DNA of 64,000 bases from Pelomonas aquatica (GTDB lineage: Bacteria > Pseudomonadota > Gammaproteobacteria > Burkholderiales > Burkholderiaceae_C), in NCBI RefSeq assembly GCF_026712205.1, contig NZ_JAPPUW010000021.1:1-64000 (forward strand). Direction: 5' to 3'. The position numbers were made by a program, and so were the translations under genes. Each line of letters starts with the position of its first letter. Position 1 is the first letter of the stretch. Of this stretch, positions 1 through 13,183 are shown piece after piece. The notes under the pieces were generated by a model. That model saw nothing but the letters and a program-made list of their open reading frames with translations. It searched no databases and was not told where the DNA came from.

Positions 1-112
1 CATACGGGCCTTCGCGAGGCCAGCGCCGCAGGCAGTCACCATGGGGGCACGGAAGTCAGTTCCTACCCTCGGTCCACCTCCTCGTCGATGTCAACAAGCA
101 GGAGGTTGCCCA
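1..112 (+). other. 5' edge upstream of tadC, possible end of an upstream gene
   Basis: All three forward frames stay open in this short edge. The third frame ends in a TGA at 114-116 that overlaps the tadC ATG at 113-115 in the ATGA pattern typical of coupled genes, so it may be the tail of a preceding tad gene. The last residues do not resemble a TadB tail that I recognise, so no product is assigned. A strong AGGAGG at 100-105 serves tadC. Confidence 0.25.
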
Positions 113-997
113 ATGAGCCTTTACGCCTGGATTCCGCTGCTGTGCGCGCTGGGCCTGGGCCTCGCAATCGCGCTGGTCGCGCATTCGTTGATCCGCGCCA
201 TCGACGACGTGCCCGACGAGGATCGCAGCTACCGCGACTCGCCGCCGCTGGCCTTCCGCCTGGGCTGGTGGCCCATCCGCTGGATCGCCTACTACCTGGG
301 GCCGCAACTGAGCGTGCCGCTGCGCCAGCGCGTGCTGACGCGGCTGCGCCTGGCGGGCCTGGACTACGCCCTCGCACCCGAGCAGTTCGTGGCAGGCCAG
401 TTGCTGAGCGCTGCGCTGGTGGGCTTGCTGACCGTCTGGCTGCTGGGCAGCTTCGGCCGCCCGCTCGGGCCCTGGCCGCTGGTGGCCGGGCTGTGCGGCT
501 ACCTCTTCCCGGCGATCTGGCTGCGCGACCTCGTGCAGCTGCGCCGCCGCGAGACGCTGAAGACCCTGCCCTTCATGCTGGACATCATCACGCTGTGCGT
601 GGAGGCCGGCCTCAACCTGACCGGCGCCTTCAGCCAGGCCGTGGCCAAGGGGCCGGCGGGTCCGCTGCGGGACGAGTTTTCGCGCGTGCTGCGCGACGTG
701 CGCGCCGGCCGGCCACGGCTGGACGCGCTGCGCACGCTGGCCGACCGCATGAACGAGCCGTCCATCACCAACTTCGTTTCCGCGCTGATCCAGGCGGAGC
801 GCATGGGCATGAACCTCGGCCCCATCCTGCGCGCCCAGTCCGAGCAGCGCCGCAGCGAGCGCTTTGCGCGCGCCGAGAAGCTGGCCATGGAGGCGCCCGT
901 GAAGCTGCTGTTCCCGCTGATCGCCTTCATCTTTCCCTGCACCTTCGTCGTCCTCGGTTTCCCGATCGCGATGAAGTTCATGCACATGGGCCTGTGA
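113..997 (+). CDS. tadC: Tad/Flp pilus inner-membrane platform protein TadC (type II secretion F domain)
   Basis: TadC is one of two polytopic platform proteins of the Tad (tight adherence, Flp pilus) machine. With TadB it sits in the inner membrane above the ATPase TadA. The 294-residue protein has an N-terminal membrane segment (residues about 5-25), a hydrophobic pair near 110-150, and a type II secretion F domain around 160-285 that includes LPFMLDIITLCVEAGLNL. It ends in a long membrane helix (LLFPLIAFIFPCTFVVLG). The ATG at 113 is preferred over an in-frame ATG at 41 because AGGAGG lies 7 bases upstream of it. The gene is followed after 7 bases by the DUF192 gene and appears to head an operon that reaches the Rhs toxin genes. 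TadB and TadA are not in the window. Confidence 0.9.
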   Translation: MSLYAWIPLLCALGLGLAIALVAHSLIRAIDDVPDEDRSYRDSPPLAFRLGWWPIRWIAYYLGPQLSVPLRQRVLTRLRLAGLDYALAPEQFVAGQLLSAALVGLLTVWLLGSFGRPLGPWPLVAGLCGYLFPAIWLRDLVQLRRRETLKTLPFMLDIITLCVEAGLNLTGAFSQAVAKGPAGPLRDEFSRVLRDVRAGRPRLDALRTLADRMNEPSITNFVSALIQAERMGMNLGPILRAQSEQRRSERFARAEKLAMEAPVKLLFPLIAFIFPCTFVVLGFPIAMKFMHMGL

Positions 998-1004
998 GGA
1001 ACGA

Positions 1005-1373
1005 ATGCACATCACCCCCACACCCGACACCCTGCTCGTGCACGAGGCCACGCGCTTTCGCACACGCCTGCTCGGCCTGCTCGCGCTGCCGCGCCTGCAG
1101 CCCGGCGAAGCCCTGGCCCTGCAGCCCTGCGGCAGCGTGCACACCTGCTTCATGCGCTACGCCATCGACGTGGTCTACCTCGACGCCGACGACACGGTGA
1201 TCAAGGTCGTTCTCGCACTCGCGCCCTGGCGTTTCAGCGCCTGTCGAGGTGCGCGCACGACGCTGGAGCTGGCTGCCGGCGAGGCCACGCGCCTGCAGAT
1301 CCACCCCGGCATGCACCTCGCATGGTGCAACCCGCACGCGCCCGGGGCCACCACCCGCCCGACTCATCCATGA
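1005..1373 (+). CDS. DUF192 family protein
   Basis: This is a small (122-residue) DUF192 protein. The family core is visible as SVHTCFMRYAIDVVYLD at about residues 44-60, followed by the conserved basic/proline segment that ends in a GMHLAW motif. The biochemical role of DUF192 is not established; such genes often lie near Tad/pilus or secretion loci. A GAGGAA ribosome site overlaps the tadC stop. The stop codon overlaps the next gene's ATG, which indicates translational coupling. No signal peptide is evident, unlike many exported DUF192 homologues. Confidence 0.8.
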   Translation: MHITPTPDTLLVHEATRFRTRLLGLLALPRLQPGEALALQPCGSVHTCFMRYAIDVVYLDADDTVIKVVLALAPWRFSACRGARTTLELAAGEATRLQIHPGMHLAWCNPHAPGATTRPTHP

Positions 1374-2236
1374 ACCCTTCCATGAACGCCTACCGACTCG
1401 TCCCCGTTCCCGCCATTGCCGCCCTTGCGCTGACGCTCGCCGCCTGCGGCGGCGGCAGCTCTGCCGATTCGGCCACGGCCACGCCCAGTGCGTCGAGCGA
1501 TCCCTACGCCGGCACCGCCCATCTGAAAACACAGGAGACCTATCTGCACACCAACGGCAGCACGGGCATCGCCCGCGACGTCTTCCAGGTCAATGTCGAT
1601 CAATGCAACGCCTTCCGCGACGCGCAATACAAGCTGCCGGCCGTGCAGCCACCCGAGGTGCTGATGGCCGGCCTGGACGTGAAGGTGGTGGAGCGCTACT
1701 ACGACAACGGCCGCTCGGTCGAAACCACCGCCGGCTACGGTCTGACGCTGCCCGACATGCAGCGCTGGCTGGACGATCTCAAGGCCGCGCAAGGCAATGC
1801 TGCCGCCGTCACGCCGCCGGACTGCGCCGCCGCCAAGCGGCAGGACAGCGTCAGCGGCTGGCTGTGGCTGGACGGCGTGAAGTACGAGTTGCGCTACGAC
1901 ACCCGGCAGGCCATCGGCACGCGCGGCGGCAGCAGCTTCACGCGCAGCAACATCGCCACGAGCGCCGAGGTCGCGGCCTGGTCCAAGAAGCAGGTCATGG
2001 GCGAGACCTGCCTGGTCGCCAGCGGCCCCAACGTGCCGCCCAGCCTCACGTCAGGCTGCTTGTGGGACCGCTTCCCGGCGGCCCAGTACCTGAACTTGCC
2101 CTGGATGCTCGACGCGCCCCAGCCCGGCCTGAGCGAACGCAAGCTCATCGTCACGCTGGGGGTCGACAGCGGCAAGGCCACGCCGGCCGGCAAGCTCGAC
2201 CTGCCCGCCGGCTTCACGGTGAAGGTCATCAACTGA
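1370..2236 (+). CDS. Predicted lipoprotein of unknown function in the tad-Rhs operon
   Basis: The 288-residue protein begins with a lipoprotein signal: a hydrophobic stretch ends in a lipobox LAAC, with the acylated cysteine at residue 26 when translation starts at 1370. A Gly/Ser linker follows. I do not recognise the remaining 250 residues as a known domain. They contain several cysteines (for example around DQCNAF and PPDCAAAK) compatible with a disulfide-bonded periplasmic or outer-membrane protein. The ATG overlaps the upstream TGA; an alternative ATG lies at 1382. It sits 10 bases before a TadE-type pseudopilin gene, so a role in the Tad apparatus or in display of the Rhs protein is possible but only inferred. 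Confidence 0.7.
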   Translation: MNPSMNAYRLVPVPAIAALALTLAACGGGSSADSATATPSASSDPYAGTAHLKTQETYLHTNGSTGIARDVFQVNVDQCNAFRDAQYKLPAVQPPEVLMAGLDVKVVERYYDNGRSVETTAGYGLTLPDMQRWLDDLKAAQGNAAAVTPPDCAAAKRQDSVSGWLWLDGVKYELRYDTRQAIGTRGGSSFTRSNIATSAEVAAWSKKQVMGETCLVASGPNVPPSLTSGCLWDRFPAAQYLNLPWMLDAPQPGLSERKLIVTLGVDSGKATPAGKLDLPAGFTVKVIN

Positions 2237-2246
2237 CGGAGCCACC

Positions 2247-3140
2247 ATGCGCCGCCACCTCTGCCGACCGCGCCCAGGGCCGCAGCGCCAGCGCGGCGCC
2301 GGCCTGGTCGAGACCACGCTGGTCCTGCCGACCCTGCTGTTCCTGGTTCTCGGCCTGTGGCAGGCGGCGCTGGGCTATCACGCCAAGTCCAGCGTCAACT
2401 ACGCGACCTTCGAGGCAGCGCGCGCGGGCTCCGTCGCCAACGCCAGCAGGGCCAAGATCATGTCGGGCTTCCAGCGCGCGATGCTGGGCTACTACGGCGG
2501 CGGCCGCACGGCGGCCGAGCTGGCCAGCACCGGCAAGAAGGTGCTGGAGGACATCACCGGCACGGTCGTGCGCATCGAGATCCTGTCGCCCACCCAGGAG
2601 AGCTTCGACGACTACAACAGCCCCGAGCTGCAGAAGGCACTGAAGACCGACGAGAAGGTCATCCCCAACACCGGCCTGGACGAACTGAGCTGCCCGCGCG
2701 ACGTGCCCGGCTGCCAGAGCGACCCGAAGAAGAACGCCAGCGGCCAGAGCCTGCTCGACGCCAACCTGCTCAAGCTGCGCGTCACCTACGGCATCCCCGA
2801 GAAGAAGCAGTTGCCTCTCGTCGGCCGCTTCTACACCTGGGCGCTGGGCAAGCTCGGCGCCGGGGCGGACGACCCCTTCAAGCAGGCCCTGATCGACGCC
2901 CACCGCATCCCCGTCGTGTCGCATGTCGTCGTGCGCATGCAGTCCGACGCGATCCGCAATGCCGCCATGGTCAGCAACCCCGGCCCGGGCAACGACGGCA
3001 GGCCCGTCGACCCCGGCCCGCCCGCCAGCAGCCCCAGCCTGCCCACCTGCCCCTGGTGGGACCCGAGCTGCTCCATCTGCACCGATGGCTCCGACGTCGG
3101 CAAGTGCGAACCCAAGCCGCCGAGCTGCGGCGGCCATTGA
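2247..3140 (+). CDS. TadE/TadG-like pseudopilin with a cysteine-rich tail
   Basis: The 297-residue protein has the TadE signature: a short basic leader, then GAGLVETTLVLPTLLFLVLG, with the conserved Glu directly before the membrane helix (about residues 17-45). This helix inserts the minor pseudopilin into the inner membrane and pilus. The long periplasmic part is followed by a Pro/Ser linker and a C-terminal 28-residue tail with five cysteines, which ends in KCEPKPPSCGGH. A closely similar Cys-Pro pattern occurs in the N-terminal linker of the next gene product, the Rhs protein. The gene is 21 bases upstream of the Rhs gene and is presumably co-transcribed. It is longer than a typical TadE (about 130-200 residues). 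Confidence 0.75.
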   Translation: MRRHLCRPRPGPQRQRGAGLVETTLVLPTLLFLVLGLWQAALGYHAKSSVNYATFEAARAGSVANASRAKIMSGFQRAMLGYYGGGRTAAELASTGKKVLEDITGTVVRIEILSPTQESFDDYNSPELQKALKTDEKVIPNTGLDELSCPRDVPGCQSDPKKNASGQSLLDANLLKLRVTYGIPEKKQLPLVGRFYTWALGKLGAGADDPFKQALIDAHRIPVVSHVVVRMQSDAIRNAAMVSNPGPGNDGRPVDPGPPASSPSLPTCPWWDPSCSICTDGSDVGKCEPKPPSCGGH

Positions 3141-3161
3141 CGCCGGAACGGGCTCCACCCC

Positions 3162-6100
3162 ATGAAAACGATGAACGCCGCTCGCTTCCCATCCGCCCTG
3201 AGGGACTTGTCGACCCGCTGCGGGCTTTTGCCGTGCATTGCCGCATTGCTCTGGACCGCGGTCGCATTGCAGCCCTCCGCCCAGGCGGCCGTGCTGCAGT
3301 CGCCATTGGCGAGCTGCCCGCCCAATATGAGCTGCGCGCCGGACCCCAAGCCGCCGATCTGCTCCATCCTGCCGAACGACCCGCGCTGCACGCCGGGAGG
3401 CGGTGGCGGTGGCCCCACCTGCACGGCGCCCGGCGGCGGCAGCCCGAACTGCGGCGGCTCGGGGCCGGCCAGCGTCGGCGGCGGGGGCAGTGGCGGTGTC
3501 TCGGTCGGCGGCGGCAACCCGATCAACCTGCTCAGCGGCAACAAATACCAGGAGGAGACCGACCTGCCGGCCCTGCCCGGCGTGCTCGGCCTGGAGCTCA
3601 AGCGCTACTACAACAGCGACGCCAGCTACCCCGGCTTGAGCGGCGCCAACTGGCGCACCAGTTACGAGACGGTGCTCTACGACCTGGGCTCGCAGCTGCA
3701 GATCGTGCAGGCCGATGGCCGCCGCATCACGCTGCAGCGCGGCGTGGGCGCCAACGCCAGGCTGTGCACCAGCACGCAGCTGCAGGACGGGCAGGTCCGC
3801 ATCGAGCAGACCGGCCCCGAGGGCAGGGACCGCGTCTATCGCTGGCGCTGGGCCGACGGCCGCGTGCTGAGCTTCCGCGCGGTGGGGGCGACCACGGGCG
3901 GCTACCCGCTGCACGAGATTCGCGCCGCCAGTGGGGAGCACTTGCAGCTGCGCTACAGCCCGCTGGGCGACCTCATCGGCGTGACCGACCCGCAGGGCCG
4001 CAAGCTCGAATTCATCTACGCCAAGGCCGCGCCGGGCCAGCGCGCGCCGCTGCAGGCTGTGCTGACGCCGCTGGGCCGCATCGGCTACCAGCACGACGCC
4101 CAGGGTCGCCTCACTGCAGTGAGCCAATACGCGCCCGGCAAGGATGGCCAGCCGCAGGCCAGCGCCTACGTCACGCGGCTCTACCACTACGAGGCCCAGT
4201 ACAACGGCGGCTACGGCTATCTGCTGACGGGCATCAGCGTGCAGGCGCCGGGGGAGAACAAAGGCAGCCCGCAGCGCCTGTCCACCTACGCCTACGACGC
4301 CCAGGGCCGCGCCATCCTGTCCACCAAGGGCCTGCCCGCTGAAGACGGCAAGGCCGATGCCCAGCACGGCATCGAGCAGGTTCGTGTCGACTACCTGCGC
4401 AAGCCAAGCCCCAACGAGGGCCGGCCGGACAAGAGCGGCGAGGTGCAGGTGTCGCCCGAGCGACTGGGCCTTGTCAGGCTGACCAACAGCCTCGGGCAGA
4501 CGAGCGAACTCAAGACCGCCGTGATCGGCGGGCAGCTGCGGCTGATCGAGTTCACCGGTGCCGGCTGCTCGACCTGCGGGCCGAGCAACCGGCGCTATGC
4601 CTACGACGCCGAGGGGCGGCTGCTGCGCAGCATCGAGCTCGATGCGCGGGGACAACCCCTGCGGGCCGAGCTGTGGCGCTATGACGGCTGGCATCGTCAG
4701 GTCGAGATTGCGGAACAGCTCTATGCGGCTGGCAAGCCTCAGTCGCCGCAATGGCGCCAGCGCCTGGAGTACACAGACACGCGTTTCAAGGATGGCAGCC
4801 TCGCTCTCGGGATGCAGCCAACGCGGATTGAGCAGCCCAGCGTCGTCCCCGGCAAGTCTCGCGCGACCGAGGTCGACTACAACGAGTCTGGTCAGGTGCT
4901 GCGCATCACCGAGAAGGGCTGGAGCCTCGTCGATGCGCGAGGCGAGGAGCGGCCTACGCCCGTGGAGCGGTCGACCCACTACCGCTACACCCTGGTCGCC
5001 GGCAAGAGCGTGCTGACCGAGGTCGACGGCGCATTGCCTAACGGCCCCAAGGGAGACCCGAGCGATTCCGATATCACGCGCATCGTCTGGGACGCACGGG
5101 GCCGCACGCCGTTGCGCATGGAGATGCCTGCCGGCCTGCAGGCGCGATTCGAATACGGCCCCGATGGCCGCCTTGCCAGCCTGATCGGCCCCGATGGGGC
5201 CAAGACTCGCTATAGCTACGCCGCGGACGGCACCCTCGCGGCGCTTGACCGCGGCGGTGTAATCCAGCGCTTTGAGAACAACGGCTCGCTGCACCTCCGC
5301 AAGGTGGTCATGGCCGGCGGTCAGGCCCTGCAGTTCCAGATGGACCTGAGCGGCCGGGTGGCAGCGGTCTGGGACGGACCGAGCAACCGCATCGAGTTGC
5401 AACGGGATACCGAGGGTCAGTTGCTGCAGGCCCGCCTGCTCAACCCCGATGGCTCCATTGCGCAGACGAAGGCCTGGCAGTCGGACCGTCGCGACGGCAG
5501 CGCCAACGAGCGCCGCGACGAGCTCGCGGACGGCCTGCAGCAACTCATCGGCCAAAGCGAGAGCGGTGCCGAGGTGGCCCGTCCCGACATCTGGCGGGCA
5601 CTCAGCCCCGCGCAGCAACGACTGGACGACATCCTCGCGGCCGGTCGTCTCGCGTCATCTCAGGGTTTCAGCGAGCAGGCCGATTCGGCCGGCCGCTACA
5701 CGATCTACTGGCGAGACGACTTCGGCCTCCTGCGCCGCGCGGACAGCCCCACCACCGGCAGCACTCGCTACGACTACGACGCTGCCGGTCGCCTCATCGG
5801 CCAGCGCGACAACGTGGGCGACACAGCGCGCTACCAGCGCGATGCGGCGGGTCGCGTCATCGCCATTCAAGCCCGCGACGCCCAGGGCCAGTTGGACGAG
5901 GATGCCCACATCGAATGGGGCGCGAACAACAAGCCCAGCCGCATCCGCTCGCTGCACAGCGACGAGCGCTTCGCCTACGACCGTACCGGGCAATTGAGCG
6001 AACACAGCCAGACCGTCGACGGCCACAGCTGGACGCTGCGCTACACCTACGACGCAAACGGCCAGCTGATCGCCAAGCAGATGCCGGGAGGCCAGCAGCT

Positions 6101-8264
6101 GGCCTATCGCTACCGAGGCAGCCAGCATCCGCGCGCGGGCTTGCTGGAATCGGTCTGGCTCAAGGGCTGGGTGGACCGACCGCTGGTTCACGGACTGAAC
6201 GACGAGGCCGACACCTTCGCCAATCGACGCTTCATGTTCGGCAATGGCCTGGGCAACGAACTGCGGCTCGACGACCAGGGCCGTGCGATCGAGGCAGGGT
6301 CACCAGAGGTCGGCCAGACCCGACTCAGTTACACCAGCGCCGACACGGAACCCGGCGTCGTCAGAACCCAACGCGGCACAAGCCTGGGGCAGGTTGCGAA
6401 CAGCACCTCGCCTCCGCTCTGGCAAGGTCGCCTGTATGGCCAATGGGATCGCTGGCGCGGCTCGGACTCCGCTGCGCAGCCTGCCTCGTTTAGGTTGGCC
6501 GGCATCGCCACGCCGGGCCATGAACTCTTTGATGACCTGGGACGCCAGATCACCCGTGGCGAACTGCGCCTGAGTTACGACAGCCTGGGCCGTCTGGTCG
6601 AAGTACAGCGCGACGCGAAGGGTGAAGCGCTGCAACCCGTGGCCCGCTATCGCTACAACGTGTTCGGCCAGCGCATTGCCAAGGTCACGGTCCAGGCGGG
6701 CAGTCAGGTCAGCCGAACGACTTACTTTTTCCACGACGGCAGCCAACTTGTGGCCGAGGCCGACGCCGCTGGCGCTGTGCAACGCCAATACGTCTGGATC
6801 AACGACAAGCCCGTGGCGCTGCTGGAGACTGGGCAGGTCCTGTACATCCACACCGACCACCGCAATGCACCGCTTGCTTTGACCAATGCGGCACGTCAGG
6901 TGGTCTGGCAAGCGCAAGTCGCTGACTTCCTTGCCGCCTCTGTGGTGCAAGGTGCGTCGCTGGGCCGCGTCGAGTTCAACCTGAGAGGGTCTAACCAGTA
7001 CCACGACCCCGAGACCGAGCTGCACTACAACACCCACCGCTACTACGACGCGCAGGCCGGACGCTACCTCACGCCTGACCCCATGGGCCTGGCCGTTGGG
7101 CCTGACCTATACGCCTTTGCGCTGAATCGGCCGCATTCGTTGCAGGACCCGTTGGGCCTGGCGCCAGCCGGCACGGACGTAAGCGGTTGGAGCTTTGGCG
7201 ACAAGCTGGTCGAGGTTGTCAGCATCGCTCTGAAAGAAAAACTGCCCAGCGACCTGGCAGCCGCGCTAAGCGATCTGGTCAGCCCCAGCCATATCGCCAC
7301 CACCGCGGCCATCTTCGCGCTCTGGGCCGGTTCGCATGCTTTGGGCATCGGGTTCGCGTTCGATGCCGTGATGCTGGGCGTCGCCTATTACACCCTGGGC
7401 AAGGCAGCGGCGGATCTCATCGTGGGTCTGATCGACACCACGATCGCCATCAACGCGGCGAAATGCAGCGGTGACCTGGATGCCGCGGCAGCCAAGCTGT
7501 CAAAGGCGCTTGGCAAGGGGACGGCAGCCTTCATCGAAGGTGCCGTGCTGAGAAAGGTCTTCTCCAAGACCGAAGGCGACCTCGGCGCCACAGCGATCGA
7601 GTCGCTCAAGAAAAGCGTCAACTACGCCAAGAGCAAGGTCGTCAACGCCGCTTCCTCAGCCGCCAAGCTGGGCTTCCGCTCCAGTTCATGGGCGGCCATC
7701 AGCAGCAACGCGGAGCGCGGTTTCGTCGGTGAAATCGACGCTTGGAGTTGGCTGATGAGTGGCAAGGCCAAACTGCAAGCGCTCTGCTGCAAAACCATTG
7801 ATCCGAACAAGATCACCAATCAAGCAGAATACGATACAGCGCTTGCTGCCTACAAAGGCACAAAGGGGGTCGACGGCGCCTTTGAATCACAGCCCGGCTT
7901 TTTCAAACGGTTACTCGGCGGCAAAGATCAATACTATGTCATTGAATCCAAGGCGACCGGAGGAACATTCAGCCACACCAAGGCGGAACTCAACGGCCTA
8001 CTGAACAAGACCAAGGCTGGCGATCAGCAGCTGAGCAACAATTGGCTGGGCATTGACAAGCCAGCGGACCCCAGCAGCAGACTCAATAGTTCGGTTGGAA
8101 CATCTGCTGCGACTGAAATGCAAAAAGCCTTCAAGGAGGGCCGCCTGACCCGGGTTCTCGCCACGACCGATTCCAGCGGGACAAGGTATTGGGAGGTCAA
8201 GCCGGATCCAACCGACCCAAAGAAAGTGGCCGTTGGCGATGAGATTACCAGCCTATTCAAATAG
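3162..8264 (+). CDS. Sec-exported Rhs repeat toxin with a PoNe-like PD-(D/E)xK nuclease tip
   Basis: This is a polymorphic Rhs toxin of 1700 residues. A Sec signal ends near residue 42 (PSAQA). A linker rich in Cys, Pro and Gly follows (about 50-118, six cysteines), then a DUF6531 start (PINLLSGNKYQ, from about 120). Many YD repeats (for example YDAEGRL, YDAAGRL) form the shell. The Rhs core ends with YDAQAGRYLTPDPMGL and DPLGLAP at about 1292-1332. The variable tip begins with a hydrophobic stretch (about 1377-1435) and ends in a nuclease-like domain with E1518, E1524, D1571 and the pair E1595-x-K1597 (YYVIESKAT), followed by QQLSNNWL. That arrangement resembles PoNe DNases. No PAAR or VgrG-linked N-terminus is present, so type VI export is unlikely. 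The immunity gene follows after 7 bases. Confidence 0.88.
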   Translation: MKTMNAARFPSALRDLSTRCGLLPCIAALLWTAVALQPSAQAAVLQSPLASCPPNMSCAPDPKPPICSILPNDPRCTPGGGGGGPTCTAPGGGSPNCGGSGPASVGGGGSGGVSVGGGNPINLLSGNKYQEETDLPALPGVLGLELKRYYNSDASYPGLSGANWRTSYETVLYDLGSQLQIVQADGRRITLQRGVGANARLCTSTQLQDGQVRIEQTGPEGRDRVYRWRWADGRVLSFRAVGATTGGYPLHEIRAASGEHLQLRYSPLGDLIGVTDPQGRKLEFIYAKAAPGQRAPLQAVLTPLGRIGYQHDAQGRLTAVSQYAPGKDGQPQASAYVTRLYHYEAQYNGGYGYLLTGISVQAPGENKGSPQRLSTYAYDAQGRAILSTKGLPAEDGKADAQHGIEQVRVDYLRKPSPNEGRPDKSGEVQVSPERLGLVRLTNSLGQTSELKTAVIGGQLRLIEFTGAGCSTCGPSNRRYAYDAEGRLLRSIELDARGQPLRAELWRYDGWHRQVEIAEQLYAAGKPQSPQWRQRLEYTDTRFKDGSLALGMQPTRIEQPSVVPGKSRATEVDYNESGQVLRITEKGWSLVDARGEERPTPVERSTHYRYTLVAGKSVLTEVDGALPNGPKGDPSDSDITRIVWDARGRTPLRMEMPAGLQARFEYGPDGRLASLIGPDGAKTRYSYAADGTLAALDRGGVIQRFENNGSLHLRKVVMAGGQALQFQMDLSGRVAAVWDGPSNRIELQRDTEGQLLQARLLNPDGSIAQTKAWQSDRRDGSANERRDELADGLQQLIGQSESGAEVARPDIWRALSPAQQRLDDILAAGRLASSQGFSEQADSAGRYTIYWRDDFGLLRRADSPTTGSTRYDYDAAGRLIGQRDNVGDTARYQRDAAGRVIAIQARDAQGQLDEDAHIEWGANNKPSRIRSLHSDERFAYDRTGQLSEHSQTVDGHSWTLRYTYDANGQLIAKQMPGGQQLAYRYRGSQHPRAGLLESVWLKGWVDRPLVHGLNDEADTFANRRFMFGNGLGNELRLDDQGRAIEAGSPEVGQTRLSYTSADTEPGVVRTQRGTSLGQVANSTSPPLWQGRLYGQWDRWRGSDSAAQPASFRLAGIATPGHELFDDLGRQITRGELRLSYDSLGRLVEVQRDAKGEALQPVARYRYNVFGQRIAKVTVQAGSQVSRTTYFFHDGSQLVAEADAAGAVQRQYVWINDKPVALLETGQVLYIHTDHRNAPLALTNAARQVVWQAQVADFLAASVVQGASLGRVEFNLRGSNQYHDPETELHYNTHRYYDAQAGRYLTPDPMGLAVGPDLYAFALNRPHSLQDPLGLAPAGTDVSGWSFGDKLVEVVSIALKEKLPSDLAAALSDLVSPSHIATTAAIFALWAGSHALGIGFAFDAVMLGVAYYTLGKAAADLIVGLIDTTIAINAAKCSGDLDAAAAKLSKALGKGTAAFIEGAVLRKVFSKTEGDLGATAIESLKKSVNYAKSKVVNAASSAAKLGFRSSSWAAISSNAERGFVGEIDAWSWLMSGKAKLQALCCKTIDPNKITNQAEYDTALAAYKGTKGVDGAFESQPGFFKRLLGGKDQYYVIESKATGGTFSHTKAELNGLLNKTKAGDQQLSNNWLGIDKPADPSSRLNSSVGTSAATEMQKAFKEGRLTRVLATTDSSGTRYWEVKPDPTDPKKVAVGDEITSLFK

Positions 8265-8271
8265 ATAAACT

Positions 8272-9630
8272 ATGGCAATTTTATCTGCACTCAAGAGGAT
8301 GTTTGGTGTTCAGCAACTGCCAACAATTCGGCTCGACATTGCTCCAAGAATTGGAGCCGACACCATTCACCACATTCGCGACAACCAGCGCCAGGCGAGC
8401 GCCTCAGGCGAATATCTTCAAAATCAGGCCGTCAAGGCCTTGAAATTCGCACGCGCCGAACTTGTCGATGATCGAAATAATGGTCATCGCCATGAAAATC
8501 GAATCAATGGAGAGGGCAACATTCCGGCCTATTGGCATATAGCCTATTCAGCAGGATTTCCAATTTCTGAACTGGCCTCGACGATCGATGAGTATCTGGA
8601 ACAGTTGGAGCACTTCGACAAGGAGTTTTCTACCATCTGGCAGCCGGCGCGCCGCATCATTGAAGTTCAGTTCAAGCTGGAAGAGGCGCTAAAAGGCTTG
8701 GCCTGGCTCGTCGGTATGCGAGCTACACCGGCGCAACTGGCGCGTTATCTGGACTGCTGTGGCCCGCCAGGCCAAGACGCACTCTTTGACCGTATCGTCT
8801 GCCAACTGGGTTTTGCTCGTCCGATGGCCCGTCGTCTAAGGATGCCAATGGATCACCAGCATTTGATGGCTCTGATCGATGGCGCCGTAGCTGACCGCCC
8901 GAAGCTGGCTGTCAGGGCTTTGGAGAAATGGGCTCGGGCACTGGCGCGCAGCGGAGCGCCCAGCAAGCCGGGAGACCTTGGCTACGTCGGGCAGTGGGAC
9001 CTGCCGCTAGCCCTGGTCGTTATGCTGTGGGACATTGACGACGTCGGGCTAAGCGACCACCCCCACTACCCCAGGGATCTGGTTGCGCACTTTCGGGCTT
9101 ATGGTGGCCATGTCTTGCCGATAACCAGCGGAGAGCATCTCCCCGAGCCAGCGCCTGGCAAACGGATAAATCTCGATCAACGTCATGGCACAGACCTGGA
9201 ACGCTGGCTGGCTTTGGCCAGCGATGGGGATGAAGTCGCCGTCGCCGCTGCGCTCAGTTCGCTGGACGAGACTGGCGCTCTTGAATCCAGCGCTGACTTG
9301 GCTTTCGGCGCGCTTGCAGAGCACGGGCAGGCGATCTGTGCAGACCTGAAGGACGACGAGACGCTTGAGGCGCAACTGCACGCGTTGATCGCTGCACGCG
9401 CGCCCGGAAGCGTCTTCGAAAGCGACGACATCGACGGCAATGGTGCCGCCCGCTGCGAGGCCGTGATGGTGCGCGCCCAAGCATGGATTCAGCGGTCTGC
9501 AGGCAACCTTCGCCTGCTGCAGTACAGCAGCGGCCAGGACGATTGGCGAGCGCTCCTGGTCCAGCGCAAGCATGTTGACGAGTTGGAGGCGCTGTCCCAG
9601 CAACTGCGGCTGGCTGGTCGCTTCACGTGA
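8272..9630 (+). CDS. PoNi-like immunity protein (DUF1910/DUF1911) with an extra C-terminal region
   Basis: This is the likely cognate immunity protein that neutralises the nuclease tip of the preceding Rhs protein. Residues about 20-150 match the general shape of DUF1910 (helical, with RDNQRQASASGEYL near the start). Residues about 235-275 carry the DUF1911 hallmark: GQWDLPLALVVMLWDIDD, then SDHPHYPRDLVAHF. DUF1910/1911 proteins are known as PoNi, the antidotes of PoNe DNases. The protein is 452 residues long. About 160 residues after the DUF1911 part, beginning near LPEPAPGKRINL, are additional and unassigned. The gene has lower GC than its surroundings and a weak ribosome site; translation may be coupled to the toxin gene, which ends 7 bases upstream. 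Confidence 0.78.
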   Translation: MAILSALKRMFGVQQLPTIRLDIAPRIGADTIHHIRDNQRQASASGEYLQNQAVKALKFARAELVDDRNNGHRHENRINGEGNIPAYWHIAYSAGFPISELASTIDEYLEQLEHFDKEFSTIWQPARRIIEVQFKLEEALKGLAWLVGMRATPAQLARYLDCCGPPGQDALFDRIVCQLGFARPMARRLRMPMDHQHLMALIDGAVADRPKLAVRALEKWARALARSGAPSKPGDLGYVGQWDLPLALVVMLWDIDDVGLSDHPHYPRDLVAHFRAYGGHVLPITSGEHLPEPAPGKRINLDQRHGTDLERWLALASDGDEVAVAAALSSLDETGALESSADLAFGALAEHGQAICADLKDDETLEAQLHALIAARAPGSVFESDDIDGNGAARCEAVMVRAQAWIQRSAGNLRLLQYSSGQDDWRALLVQRKHVDELEALSQQLRLAGRFT

Positions 9631-9745
9631 AGGAAGGTTCAGCCTAGCAAATCCAGGCCGGAAATCTCGCCGGAGCTACAGGCGCTGTGCAAGCGGTTCG
9701 ATGGCACCCTGCCCTGCGCTGGCTGTTGCCGACGCAGGTGCTTGA

Positions 9746-11510
9746 CGGCGTAACAGAAGCGAAGAGCAAGAGCGGATCCACTACCGCACGACGAATTGGA
9801 AGGCGTACAACGCTGGGCAGGATCGCACGGACTACCTCTACGACGCGCGGCCGCCGCGTGCTGAGCTGGCGCCACGGTAGCGGCGGGGCCGACACGCTGG
9901 CGCTTAGCCTCTACGACGACCGCCACCGCTTGGTGGCCGAGGCCGACGCCCGCGACCAGTTCACCCAGGCCTATGCGTCGATCGGCTACCGCGCCGTGAC
10001 CCAGCTCGATCCGAGCCCTCGCGGTCGTTGGGCGCGCCTGCGGACCTGGCTGCTGGGCGCCCCCAGCCACGCCTTGTACACCGATGCCGCCGGTCGCGTG
10101 CAGCGCATGGTGGATGGCGAGCGCGTGCTGTGGTCGGCTGCCGACCCAGCCGCCACGGTGGCAGGCATCCACCAGCCGCTGCGCCATGTCGGCCAGGTGC
10201 AGGACGAGGACAGCGGCCTCATCTACCGCAGTGCTCGCTTCTTGGAGCCGGGTGCCGGCCGCTTCATCAGCCCCGACCCGGCAGGCATCGCCGATGCTGT
10301 CAACGCGACCGGTCCGGCCCATCTGCTTGACCTCTACGCCTTCGCCGCCGGTCAGCCCGATCAGTACTTCGACCCGGACGGCGCGGCCCGCATCCGCTAC
10401 TTCGCCATCACCACCGAAGCCAAGGGCAAGGCCCTGGGCACCATGCAGGGCTACACCAAGGCCCGTTGGGCCTTCATCGTCGACCAGGTGGTGGCGCCGT
10501 CCGGCGTGGGCGGTGACGCCACGCTCAACAACCTGCAAAGCAAATACGCCAGCAGCCAGCAGAGCCTGCTGGTCGACGTTAACGGTGACTTCCTCAACGG
10601 CAAGTCGGCCGAGAGCTGGCTGGGCGAAGGTGGCGTGGCCGACCTGTTCAAGGACCATTACGGCGACCACCTCATCAGCGCTGCCGAGTTCACCGTGACG
10701 ATGAACGATGCGAACGCCACACGCCTGATCGCAAACTACATCGACGCCGACCGCCCCGCGCTCTACCCCAACGGCTGTCCGGCCCGCAGCCTGATGTTGC
10801 CGCCGATCAACTTCGCGGCCGAGGAGCCACCGATCAACGTCACGTCGGCGACCTCGGGCGATGCCGACAAGCAGCGCATCCTGGCCTGCGGCGACGGGGC
10901 GGCCACCGACATCGACAAGCGCCGCGTGGCCAAGTACGAGGCAGCGTCCGAGATCAACGAAACTGCGCAGATCAACCGCGACTGCTCCACCAACGGCTGC
11001 CCCGGCATCGGCTACTACTGCGACGCCACCAAGTGCTATCCGCCGCGCGACCAGCTGAAGTTCGGCGCACCGAACACCACGGCCTACGTCGATGATTTCG
11101 GCCGTGACATTACCTATCCTGGACACCATATCGAAACTTACAAAGACGATGCTCAAGAAATCGCCAAACGCCAGATCATTGCCAAGAACAAGGGCATCCA
11201 GCATCATGGGCCCTGGGGCAGTCATTACGACAGCGAAATGCTGGGCGACTACACCGTCGAAGTCGCACGCCGCATCCCCGATGAAGTGCTGGCCGACATC
11301 CGCGCCCGCCGTGGCGCACTGCGGCTGAAGTTCCGCCTCAAGCCCGATGGCGTGCTGTTCGGCTGGGACATCGAGCGCGCAGACGGCGGTCTTTCGCGCT
11401 TCGACATGCCTGGCGGGGATTTCAATGCCGCACGCTACACCAAGGCCACGGGCTTGATACGAGGCTGGGAGATCAAGCCCGACGGCAGCCGCGTCGAGAC
11501 AGAGCATTGA
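9746..11510 (+). pseudogene. Displaced Rhs C-terminus with a different tip, frameshifted near its start
   Basis: The stretch encodes the end of a second Rhs protein without its shell. In one frame, 9746-9846 reads ERIHYRTTNWKAYNAG then RTDYLYDAR. The continuation RRVLSWRHG is in another frame, so a one-base shift lies near 9846-9855. From there an open frame runs to 11510 with Rhs core features (DEDSGLIYRSARFLEPGAGR, ISPDPAGIA, LYAFAAGQPDQYFDPDG). It ends in an unassigned tip of about 370 residues that contains a cysteine-rich patch (NRDCSTNGCPGIGYYC). An ATG at 9687 could start a 607-residue product in the second frame, but its first 55 residues are not Rhs-like. I read it as a silent tip cassette left by Rhs tip exchange. 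No immunity gene follows it. Confidence 0.7.
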
Positions 11511-11668: not shown

Positions 11669-13183
11669 ATGTCCCTCGCCACCGTCCACTCCCGCGCCCT
11701 CGACGGCCTTGCCGCTGCGCCGGTGACCGTGGAAGTGCATCTGGCCAACGGCCTGCCGTCGTTCACCGTCGTCGGCCTCGCGGATACCGAGGTCAAGGAG
11801 GCCCGCGAGCGCGTGCGCGCGGCGCTGCAGAACAGCGGCCTGGGCTTCCCTGCGAACAAGCGCATCACCGTGAACCTCGCGCCGGCCGATCTGCCCAAGG
11901 AGGGCGGCCGTTTCGACCTGCCGATGGCCCTGGGCCTGCTGGCGGCCAACGGGCAGATCGACGCGGCCAGGCTGGCGCGCTTCGAATGCGCCGGCGAACT
12001 GTCGCTGGCCGGCGAGCTGCGGCCCGTGCGCGGCGCGCTGGCGATGGCCCTGGCGCTGCGCCAGGCCGGCACGGACCGCGAGCTGCTGCTGCCCGAGGCC
12101 AGCGCCGCCGAGGCCGCACTGGTCGACGGCCTCGCGGTGCGGCAGGCCAGACACCTGCTCGATGTCGTCGCGGCGCTGCAGCCCGAAGGCGAAGGCCTGG
12201 CGCGCGCCGCGGCCCTGCCGCGCGAACGTCAGAGCGGCCTGCCCGACCTGGCCGACATCAAGGGCCAGGCCGGCCCGAAGCGCGCGCTGGAGATCGCCGC
12301 GGCCGGCTCGCACAGCCTGTTGATGGTCGGCCCGCCGGGCACCGGCAAGTCCATGCTGGCCCAGCGCCTGGCCGGCCTGCTGCCGGCGCTGGACGACGAT
12401 GCGGCCCTGGAGTCCGCCGCCGTGCTCAGCCTGTCCGGCCAGTTCGACATCTCGCGCTGGGGGCAGAGGCCGCTGCGGGCGCCTCACCACTCGGCGTCGA
12501 GCGTGGCCCTGGTCGGCGGCGGATCACCGCCGCGACCGGGGGAGATCTCGCTGGCCCAGCACGGCGTGTTGTTCCTCGACGAAATTCCCGAATTTCCAAG
12601 GGCTGCGTTGGAGGCCTTGCGAGAGCCCTTGGAGACCGGCCGCATCCTGATCTCGAGGGCGGCCCGCCAGGCCGAGTTCCCCGCGCGCTTCCAGCTCGTT
12701 GCCGCGATGAACCCCTGCCCTTGCGGACATCTGGGCAACCCGCTGCGCGCCTGCCGCTGCACGCCCGACCAGGTGGCGCGCTACCAGGGCCGGCTCAGCG
12801 GGCCCTTCCTGGACCGGCTGGACCTGCTCGTCGAGGTGCCCGTCATCCCGCCGCGCGAGCTGCAGGACATGGCCCCGGGCGAGCCCAGCGCCGTCGTCGC
12901 CGAGCGCGTGGCCGCCGCGCGCGAGCGCGCACTGATGCGCCAGGGCGTGGCGAACGCGCAGCTGCCAGCCCAGGACCTGGCCGGGCACGCCGGACTGGAG
13001 CCGGCCGCCAAGTCCTTGCTGGAGCGCTCGGCCGAGCGCCTCGGCTGGTCGGCGCGAAGCTTCCACCGCGTGCTGCGCGTCGCGCGCACGATCGCGGACC
13101 TGGCCGGCGCGGCAGGCATCGGCAGCGGCCATGTGGCCGAGGCCATCCAGATGCGGCGCGGCCTGCCCGGCCAGGCGGGCTGA
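11669..13183 (+). CDS. comM: ComM/YifB family AAA+ ATPase (Mg chelatase-like)
   Basis: ComM is a hexameric AAA+ helicase that drives branch migration during natural transformation; the family is also called YifB. The 504-residue product has the usual length. It starts with the conserved MSLATVHSRALDG, has a Lon/S5-like N-terminal domain (about 1-125), a Walker A GPPGTGKS at about 219-226, Walker B LFLDEIPEF, and the C-terminal Mg-chelatase helical domain from about 400. The start at 11669 fits the family N-terminus; an in-frame ATG far upstream (11507) would overlap the Rhs remnant and is rejected. It is transcribed alone and is followed by a convergent glycine-zipper gene. Confidence 0.93.
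   Translation: MSLATVHSRALDGLAAAPVTVEVHLANGLPSFTVVGLADTEVKEARERVRAALQNSGLGFPANKRITVNLAPADLPKEGGRFDLPMALGLLAANGQIDAARLARFECAGELSLAGELRPVRGALAMALALRQAGTDRELLLPEASAAEAALVDGLAVRQARHLLDVVAALQPEGEGLARAAALPRERQSGLPDLADIKGQAGPKRALEIAAAGSHSLLMVGPPGTGKSMLAQRLAGLLPALDDDAALESAAVLSLSGQFDISRWGQRPLRAPHHSASSVALVGGGSPPRPGEISLAQHGVLFLDEIPEFPRAALEALREPLETGRILISRAARQAEFPARFQLVAAMNPCPCGHLGNPLRACRCTPDQVARYQGRLSGPFLDRLDLLVEVPVIPPRELQDMAPGEPSAVVAERVAAARERALMRQGVANAQLPAQDLAGHAGLEPAAKSLLERSAERLGWSARSFHRVLRVARTIADLAGAAGIGSGHVAEAIQMRRGLPGQAG

Follow-up and report, generated by a model that had tools for sequence, protein, structure and literature searches.

A Sec-type Rhs polymorphic toxin linked to a TadE minor pilin in Pelomonas aquatica and its relatives: a probable cargo of the Tad pilus

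Introduction

In Pelomonas aquatica, a gene for an Rhs polymorphic toxin follows a run of Tad (type IVc) pilus genes at the start of contig NZ_JAPPUW010000021.1 (contig C14 of the assembly). The stretch analysed here, called the window, comprises 64,000 nucleotides from position 1 of that contig. Among described systems, the closest is the Tad-like Kil pilus of Myxococcus xanthus, which is required for contact killing (PMC8460266, PMC12075869). Like the present locus, the Kil pilus has a Tad apparatus and minor pilins of the TadE, TadF and TadG kind; its tip bears variable domains and contact killing has been shown. In contrast, the available parts of both papers name no toxin for Kil, which works with a needleless type III secretion system (PMC8460266, PMC12075869), and the word Rhs does not occur in the available part of the second. 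A minor pilin that docks or loads cargo, as proposed below for TadE, is described there for the type II secretion system (T2SS) and for TcpB and TcpF of the toxin-coregulated pilus (PMC12075869); the cargo here differs in being an Rhs polymorphic toxin that is sometimes fused to the pilin.

The toxin itself may be compared with three groups. The Rhs toxins of the type VI secretion system (T6SS), which are linked to PAAR or VgrG, share with it an Rhs shell, a variable C-terminal toxin and an immunity gene; unlike them, the present locus has no PAAR or VgrG match in the scanned proteins, a Sec-type start, and TadE and TadC as neighbours. The WapA-type Rhs toxins of Gram-positive bacteria combine Sec export with a polymorphic C-terminus, as here; to our knowledge they are not linked to a pilus, unlike the present toxin. 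The PoNe/PoNi DNase toxins (PMC6688995) resemble the locus in their PoNi_C immunity protein and PD-(D/E)xK motif, and PoNe domains fused to Sec signal peptides are noted in that paper. They differ in that the motif is relaxed here, where R stands for K, V for I and F for Y, and the available part of PMC6688995 notes no Tad association. A link between Tad and Rhs, between TadE and a toxin, or between a pilin and Rhs was not found in print among the matches listed for the open-access literature; in a 2012 survey (PMC3482391), the words Tad, TadE, pilus and pili have 0 occurrences in 300,000 of its 357,715 characters.

Comparisons of gene neighbourhoods and protein families indicate that this polymorphic toxin is probably a dedicated cargo of the Tad pilus, carried by the TadE minor pilin. 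The proposal draws on gene linkage, on a TadE tail that co-occurs with Rhs, on TadE-Rhs and TadE-HINT fusions, and on variable toxin ends accompanied by immunity-like genes. Toxins of recognised kinds and immunity-like genes adjoin or are fused to a Tad minor pilin in many bacteria, and this recurring pairing makes toxin carriage by Tad pili directly testable. If true, the proposal would add a delivery route for polymorphic toxins and would hint at the kind of toxin that a Kil-like pilus might carry.

Organization of the locus

An earlier note on this DNA had described six closely spaced genes from tadC to a PoNi-like gene. All six open reading frames (ORFs) were recovered at its coordinates, with neighbours that overlap or are separated by at most 21 nt, and with the named families for all but the lipoprotein, which matched no Pfam family above cut-off. 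These genes and the variable end of the Rhs protein are as follows.

113..997, + strand: TadC, the inner-membrane platform protein of the Tad pilus (PF00482, T2SSF, 6.7e-19; tadA-tadB synteny in relatives)
1005..1373, + strand: DUF192 protein (PF02643, 5.1e-14; same position in many relatives)
1370..2236, + strand: putative lipoprotein (lipobox by eye; a relative in the same place in Pelomonas, L044)
2247..3140, + strand: TadE-like minor pilin (PF07811, 1.1e-10; prepilin site G|AGLVE by eye)
3162..8264, + strand: Sec-type Rhs polymorphic toxin of 1,700 aa (Pfam DUF6531, RHS_repeat and RHS above cut-off)
7161..8261, + strand: variable C-terminal region of Rhs (PD-(D/E)xK, PoNe-like motif GFVGE..GVDGAF..YYVIESK)
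8272..9630, + strand: PoNi-like immunity protein (PoNi_C, 2.1e-9; no signal sequence by eye)

At the N-terminus of the Rhs protein, a hydrophobic segment with a mean hydropathy of 2.4 across 12 residues precedes an AQA-A site identified by eye, in agreement with the Sec signal proposed in the note. A Cys-rich linker lies between this start and DUF6531. An Rhs-associated core was added by NCBIfam to the Pfam DUF6531 and RHS matches, so that the protein has the layout of an Rhs polymorphic toxin: DUF6531, RHS repeats, Rhs-associated core, and then a variable C-terminus. The proposed lack of PAAR and VgrG features also held, as the seven proteins encoded in 113-11510 gave no match to either domain at E <= 0.1, genes farther off being outside the scan. 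A simple scan of 113-9630 gave no sigma-70-like promoter and no + strand terminator; such a scan turns up roughly one chance promoter per 11.7 kb, which makes this result weak.

Conservation of the Tad-Rhs linkage

Named genomes were searched with four Tad-linked Rhs proteins, which gave 78 loci from the best 80 of 82 stretches. Linkage was counted by profile positions, and 12 of the 84 Rhs ORFs were left out for having less than 1.5 kb upstream. TadE ends at most 700 nt upstream in 40 of the 72 ORFs that have at least 1.5 kb, which is not an unbiased rate because the query proteins were themselves Tad-linked; tadC is present as well in 36 of these 40. The linked ORFs span 15 genera as named in the sequence records, some of them metagenome-assembled genomes: Pelomonas, Roseateles, Aquabacterium, Rhodoferax, Rubrivivax, Massilia, Duganella, Janthinobacterium, Rugamonas, Collimonas, Thauera, Pseudothauera, Thiobacillus, Sulfurimicrobium, and Solimonas, the last in Nevskiales. 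The earlier note had made its proposal depend on a linkage conserved in related genomes; it recurs in many genera, and TadE and Rhs form a single polypeptide in four other families. A chance neighbourhood of tad and rhs was rejected on these two grounds.

The specificity of the linkage is supported by a DUF6531 sample of the order. It comprised 30 loci from 150 genomes, of which 28 match the Rhs profile and 27 of these have at least 1 kb upstream; TadE was seen in the examined flank at the window's own locus only, the sample having taken one best locus per genome, and two genomes (G254 and G330) hold TadE-linked copies beyond those loci. A phylum-wide search matched 11 of 398 genomes, all of the same class; the Rhs scan does not include the loci that it added (L250-L260).

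Fusions of TadE to toxins

A class-wide search identified TadE and Rhs as one ORF in five genomes from four other families (G671, G794, G623, G642 and G934), with G671 and G794 belonging to one genus. Three of these (G671, G623 and G642) carry TadE, DUF6531 and RHS above the Pfam cut-offs in a single ORF; the three ORFs are 1,909, 1,799 and 1,883 aa long and two have a Tle1-like lipase end. Contig ends truncate the fusions in G794 and G934, and these two were recognised by profiles built in this analysis. By eye, the TadE parts retain the prepilin site G|xxxxE, which is not visible in G934, where the start is missing. Among the stretches retrieved, tad genes lie beside the fusion in G623 only. 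In a further genome (G630; L240 5311-7503), TadE is fused to a pretoxin HINT domain (PT-HINT) and a further C-terminal region. In G065 (L032 10112-11881), TadE has a 349-aa tail and is overlapped by a small ORF (11881-12393); no family was assigned to either, and the two are possibly a toxin and its immunity protein.

The fusions bear on whether the toxin is displayed or simply released. The Tad apparatus could act like a T2SS, with TadE pseudopilins pushing a soluble periplasmic Rhs protein into the medium, and with neither tip display nor contact. The Sec-type start of Rhs would suit this route, as would the platform, ATPase and secretin families that are common to Tad and T2SS, and minor pilins of the T2SS are described as loading cargo in the introduction of PMC12075869. 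The TadE-Rhs fusions, however, keep the pilin N-terminus and prepilin site and so tether the toxin to a pilin, which argues for display over free release; the T2SS-like route is considered unlikely. The simplest reading of the genes is that TadE would carry the toxin covalently in some lineages and by way of its tail in others.

The TadE tail

A Pro/Gly/Cys-rich tail, in which a PGxGN motif is common, closes the TadE proteins adjacent to Rhs; that of the window (2247-3140) is Pro/Cys-rich with 5 Cys. Tails were scored by script when they were 50 aa or longer and held 3 or more Cys, leaving out 3'-cut TadE ORFs and counting identical ends once. By this measure a tail is present in 41 of 43 Rhs-adjacent TadEs versus 8 of the 33 TadEs lacking Rhs (Fisher p 4e-11, with no correction for kinship). 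L045 was scored as untailed though its sequence shows a Cys-rich tail, and L051 has a 55-aa tail with one Cys.

Several other genes and domains are found around these tails. At L149, a 401-aa protein with no Pfam match (11700-12905) stands in place of Rhs and overlaps the tailed TadE by 4 bases. An OmpA-like domain follows the Cys-rich tail in L052 (PF00691 confirmed) and, by eye, follows the tail in L065, L075, L077, L092, L112, L115 and L156. A gene that appears DsbG-like by eye recurs beside TadE or Rhs (L029 3903-4520, L061 5334-5939, L063 6051-6689, L100 2479-3129 and 5929-6711, L152 3093-3716). Pfam was run on two copies, giving a sub-threshold Thioredoxin_2 match only for L029 and no thioredoxin match for L061. 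The gene may serve the Cys-rich tails.

Of 89 Rhs ORFs, 78 combine a hydrophobic start with two or more Cys in the linker that precedes a GNP..GNK motif, comprising all 44 TadE-linked ORFs listed and 34 of the 45 non-linked ones. Among the other 11, the motif was not recovered in 6, while 5 fall short, 4 of them truncated at a contig start. That most non-linked copies, orphans with no TadE among them, have the same kind of N-terminus would be expected if the operon were one of convenience, in which Rhs is exported by another route and has only its regulation in common with tad. Since single-polypeptide fusions occur in four families, and the tail accompanies Rhs-linked TadE, this explanation is very unlikely.

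Toxin ends and immunity genes

The C-terminal region of the window Rhs protein gave no Pfam, NCBIfam or PDB-sequence match. Compared by eye to the PoNe DNase motif given in PMC6688995, Kx3GExnGIDx2YxnYx3ExK, it keeps GE, D and YxxxExK, and its K, I and Y positions hold R, V and F. It is 29 percent identical to the corresponding region of an Aquabacterium relative (L045), with the GE, D and ESK residues in common. The toxin was not accepted as a proven PoNe, given the relaxed motif and the missing model match. The immunity-like gene directly downstream (8272-9630) encodes a PoNi_C protein whose protective role is putative and which matches DUF1911 proteins of known structure (E 4e-5). A PADLOC scan of the Rhs and immunity proteins returned 0 families, and NCBIfam gave no relevant match on ten toxin-bearing proteins.

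Toxin ends vary among the Tad-linked Rhs proteins of relatives. Others include a Tle1-like lipase (a phospholipase effector domain), DUF6765 (L047) and VanY, a D-Ala-D-Ala carboxypeptidase match in an orphan copy (L053). In a scan of ten ends only L047 and L053 passed the cut-off; L051 has a VWA7_N/Het-C match below it, and several ends match no family. A lipobox ORF starts at most 60 nt past the Rhs stop in 14 of 19 TadE-linked loci of the Tle1 type (FDGT/FDGS pattern; L030 counted together with L046), and three further loci of this type show such an ORF after Rhs by eye.

These ends also speak to the possibility that Rhs is a teneurin-like adhesin at the pilus tip, with a variable end that binds rather than poisons. 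Its large YD-repeat shell, the existence of a TadE-OmpA fusion, and the several C-terminal ends that match no family all accord with an adhesin. Other ends, though, match a phospholipase effector, a D-Ala-D-Ala carboxypeptidase (the orphan copy) and a PoNe-like motif, and immunity-like genes follow them, which makes the adhesin most unlikely.

Relation to type VI secretion

Rhs toxins are often T6SS effectors, and the present one could be such an effector lying beside tad genes by chance. TssC, a T6SS sheath gene, is present in the window's own genome. A set of 39 genomes that carry Tad-linked or fused toxins (15 genomes of the numbered G set and 24 of the 40 linked named loci) includes 23 with TssC. 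It was not found in the other 16 of 39, including G013, G115, G623 and G642, though many are drafts, in which absence is unproven. Because TssC is present in the own genome, absence of a T6SS there cannot be used to exclude this route. Neither mark of a T6SS-delivered Rhs was seen: PAAR or VgrG in or beside the protein, among the seven proteins scanned, or a T6SS throughout the carrier genomes, among these 39.

A FastTree phylogeny was calculated from 97 Rhs N-terminal regions and rooted on seven sequences chosen from the order sample; the tree and the list of toxin ends exclude L029-L031, which are the same loci as L055, L046 and L093. One group takes in every linked (42), fused (4) and other clade sequence (30), along with 4 of the 21 order-sample sequences; the remaining 17 of 21 fall outside. 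Three order-sample sequences that appear PAAR-like by eye (L206, L214 and L223) are among those outside the Tad-linked clade. With this placement, the Sec-type start and the fusion to TadE also pointing away from it, a T6SS effector is the least likely of the explanations weighed; it was rejected on the missing PAAR/VgrG in the scanned proteins and on the 16 of 39 genomes in which TssC was not found.

Upstream tad genes and an IS110-family element

The window carries just the second half of a tad operon. Another contig, C3, ends just after tadB and holds genes for Flp-like, Lnt-TadG, RcpC, secretin, FHA-TadA and TadB proteins. Across the two contigs the Tad (type IVc) pilus set consists of the TadA ATPase, TadB, TadC, RcpC/CpaB, secretin, TadE and a Flp-like protein, the Flp_Fap match of the last being below cut-off (17.9 vs 32.2 bits). 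The first 112 bases of C14 and the last 114 of C3 (L027 18600-18713) each occur at 7 genome sites. Both repeat ends are present on contig C11, about 1,486 bases apart, and the copy between them encodes an IS110-family transposase (PF01548, 9.6e-38), giving an element of about 1.49 kb.

1..112, strand not assigned: end of an IS110-family element (repeat at 7 genome sites), parting tadC from tadB

We infer that C3 and C14 adjoin, from the shared repeats and the synteny of relatives rather than from a spanning read. Since the contig-end repeats flank an IS110-family transposase gene on C11, such an element most likely separates tadB from tadC in this genome. An unbroken Tad-rhs operon, as the earlier note had it, is seen in relatives but most likely not in this genome, for which an intact operon was rejected in view of the element between tadB and tadC.

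In L027, one ORF (7559-10462) combines a carbon-nitrogen hydrolase/apolipoprotein N-acyltransferase-like region (LNT_N just under cut-off) with a Tad domain. A separate Lnt gene precedes Rhs in L057, and a similar-looking ORF occupies that place in L070 by eye.

Proposed mechanism

In the proposed mechanism, Sec would export Rhs to the periplasm, where its Cys-rich N-terminal linker may dock to TadE, the minor pilin, by way of the Pro/Cys-rich tail. As the pilus tip is pushed outward through the RcpC/secretin channel, Rhs would travel with it. When a neighbouring cell is touched, the nuclease-like C-terminal domain would be released and enter that cell, where it may kill, while the PoNi-like protein would protect kin. 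The Kil pilus of Myxococcus, a Tad-like apparatus needed for killing by contact, is a precedent (PMC8460266, PMC12075869). Contact delivery by the Tad apparatus had been suggested in the earlier note; the linkage in many genera and the TadE-Rhs fusions bear it out as far as the pairing of toxin and pilin is concerned, and use of the apparatus, contact and killing are kept here as predictions. The chances are about even that such pili form a separate class of contact weapon, in which TadE carries interchangeable polymorphic toxins, either fused (TadE-Rhs and TadE-HINT-toxin) or docked in trans by the Cys-rich tail, and the pilus tip is the toxin-bearing part.

Several points weigh against Rhs as Tad cargo, in addition to TssC in the own genome and the lack of a kinship correction in the tail comparison. 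The Rhs cage is wide and its passage through the Tad secretin is unproven. Many Rhs proteins of the clade are orphans, and the other 32 of 72 Rhs ORFs include 28 with no detected TadE upstream and 4 with a distant TadE only. Most sampled TadEs are likewise without Rhs, which adjoins TadE in 4 of 13 TadE-matching genomes (200 genomes of the family searched) and at 4 of 30 order loci (86 genomes with a match out of 399). At the level of the class (31 genomes with a match out of 369), 7 of 30 TadE loci have Rhs, 2 of them as a neighbour and 5 as a fusion. Some loci in these counts end at contig ends. Eight TadEs are tailed without Rhs: L029 (first copy), L032 (fused to another domain), L044 (second copy), L120, L121, L122, L139 (a different kind of tail by eye) and L149 (followed by the 401-aa protein); for L122, an Rhs core fragment is seen by eye on the same short contig (L152). 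In the tree, the fused clade has a support of 0.99, but the node joining fused and linked Rhs has 0.33, so that one ancient association and two independent ones are both possible. Finally, the IS110-family element may uncouple expression of tadC to Rhs from the upstream tad genes.

The downstream cassette

One more ORF follows the immunity-like gene.

9687..11510, + strand: displaced orphan cassette with an Rhs core fragment (Rhs_assc_core, 6.4e-14; tblastn)

Displaced cassettes are usual at rhs loci. This ORF joins the core fragment to a C-terminal region different from that of the window Rhs protein, and to a tail resembling the genes that follow Rhs in relatives of the Tle1 type.

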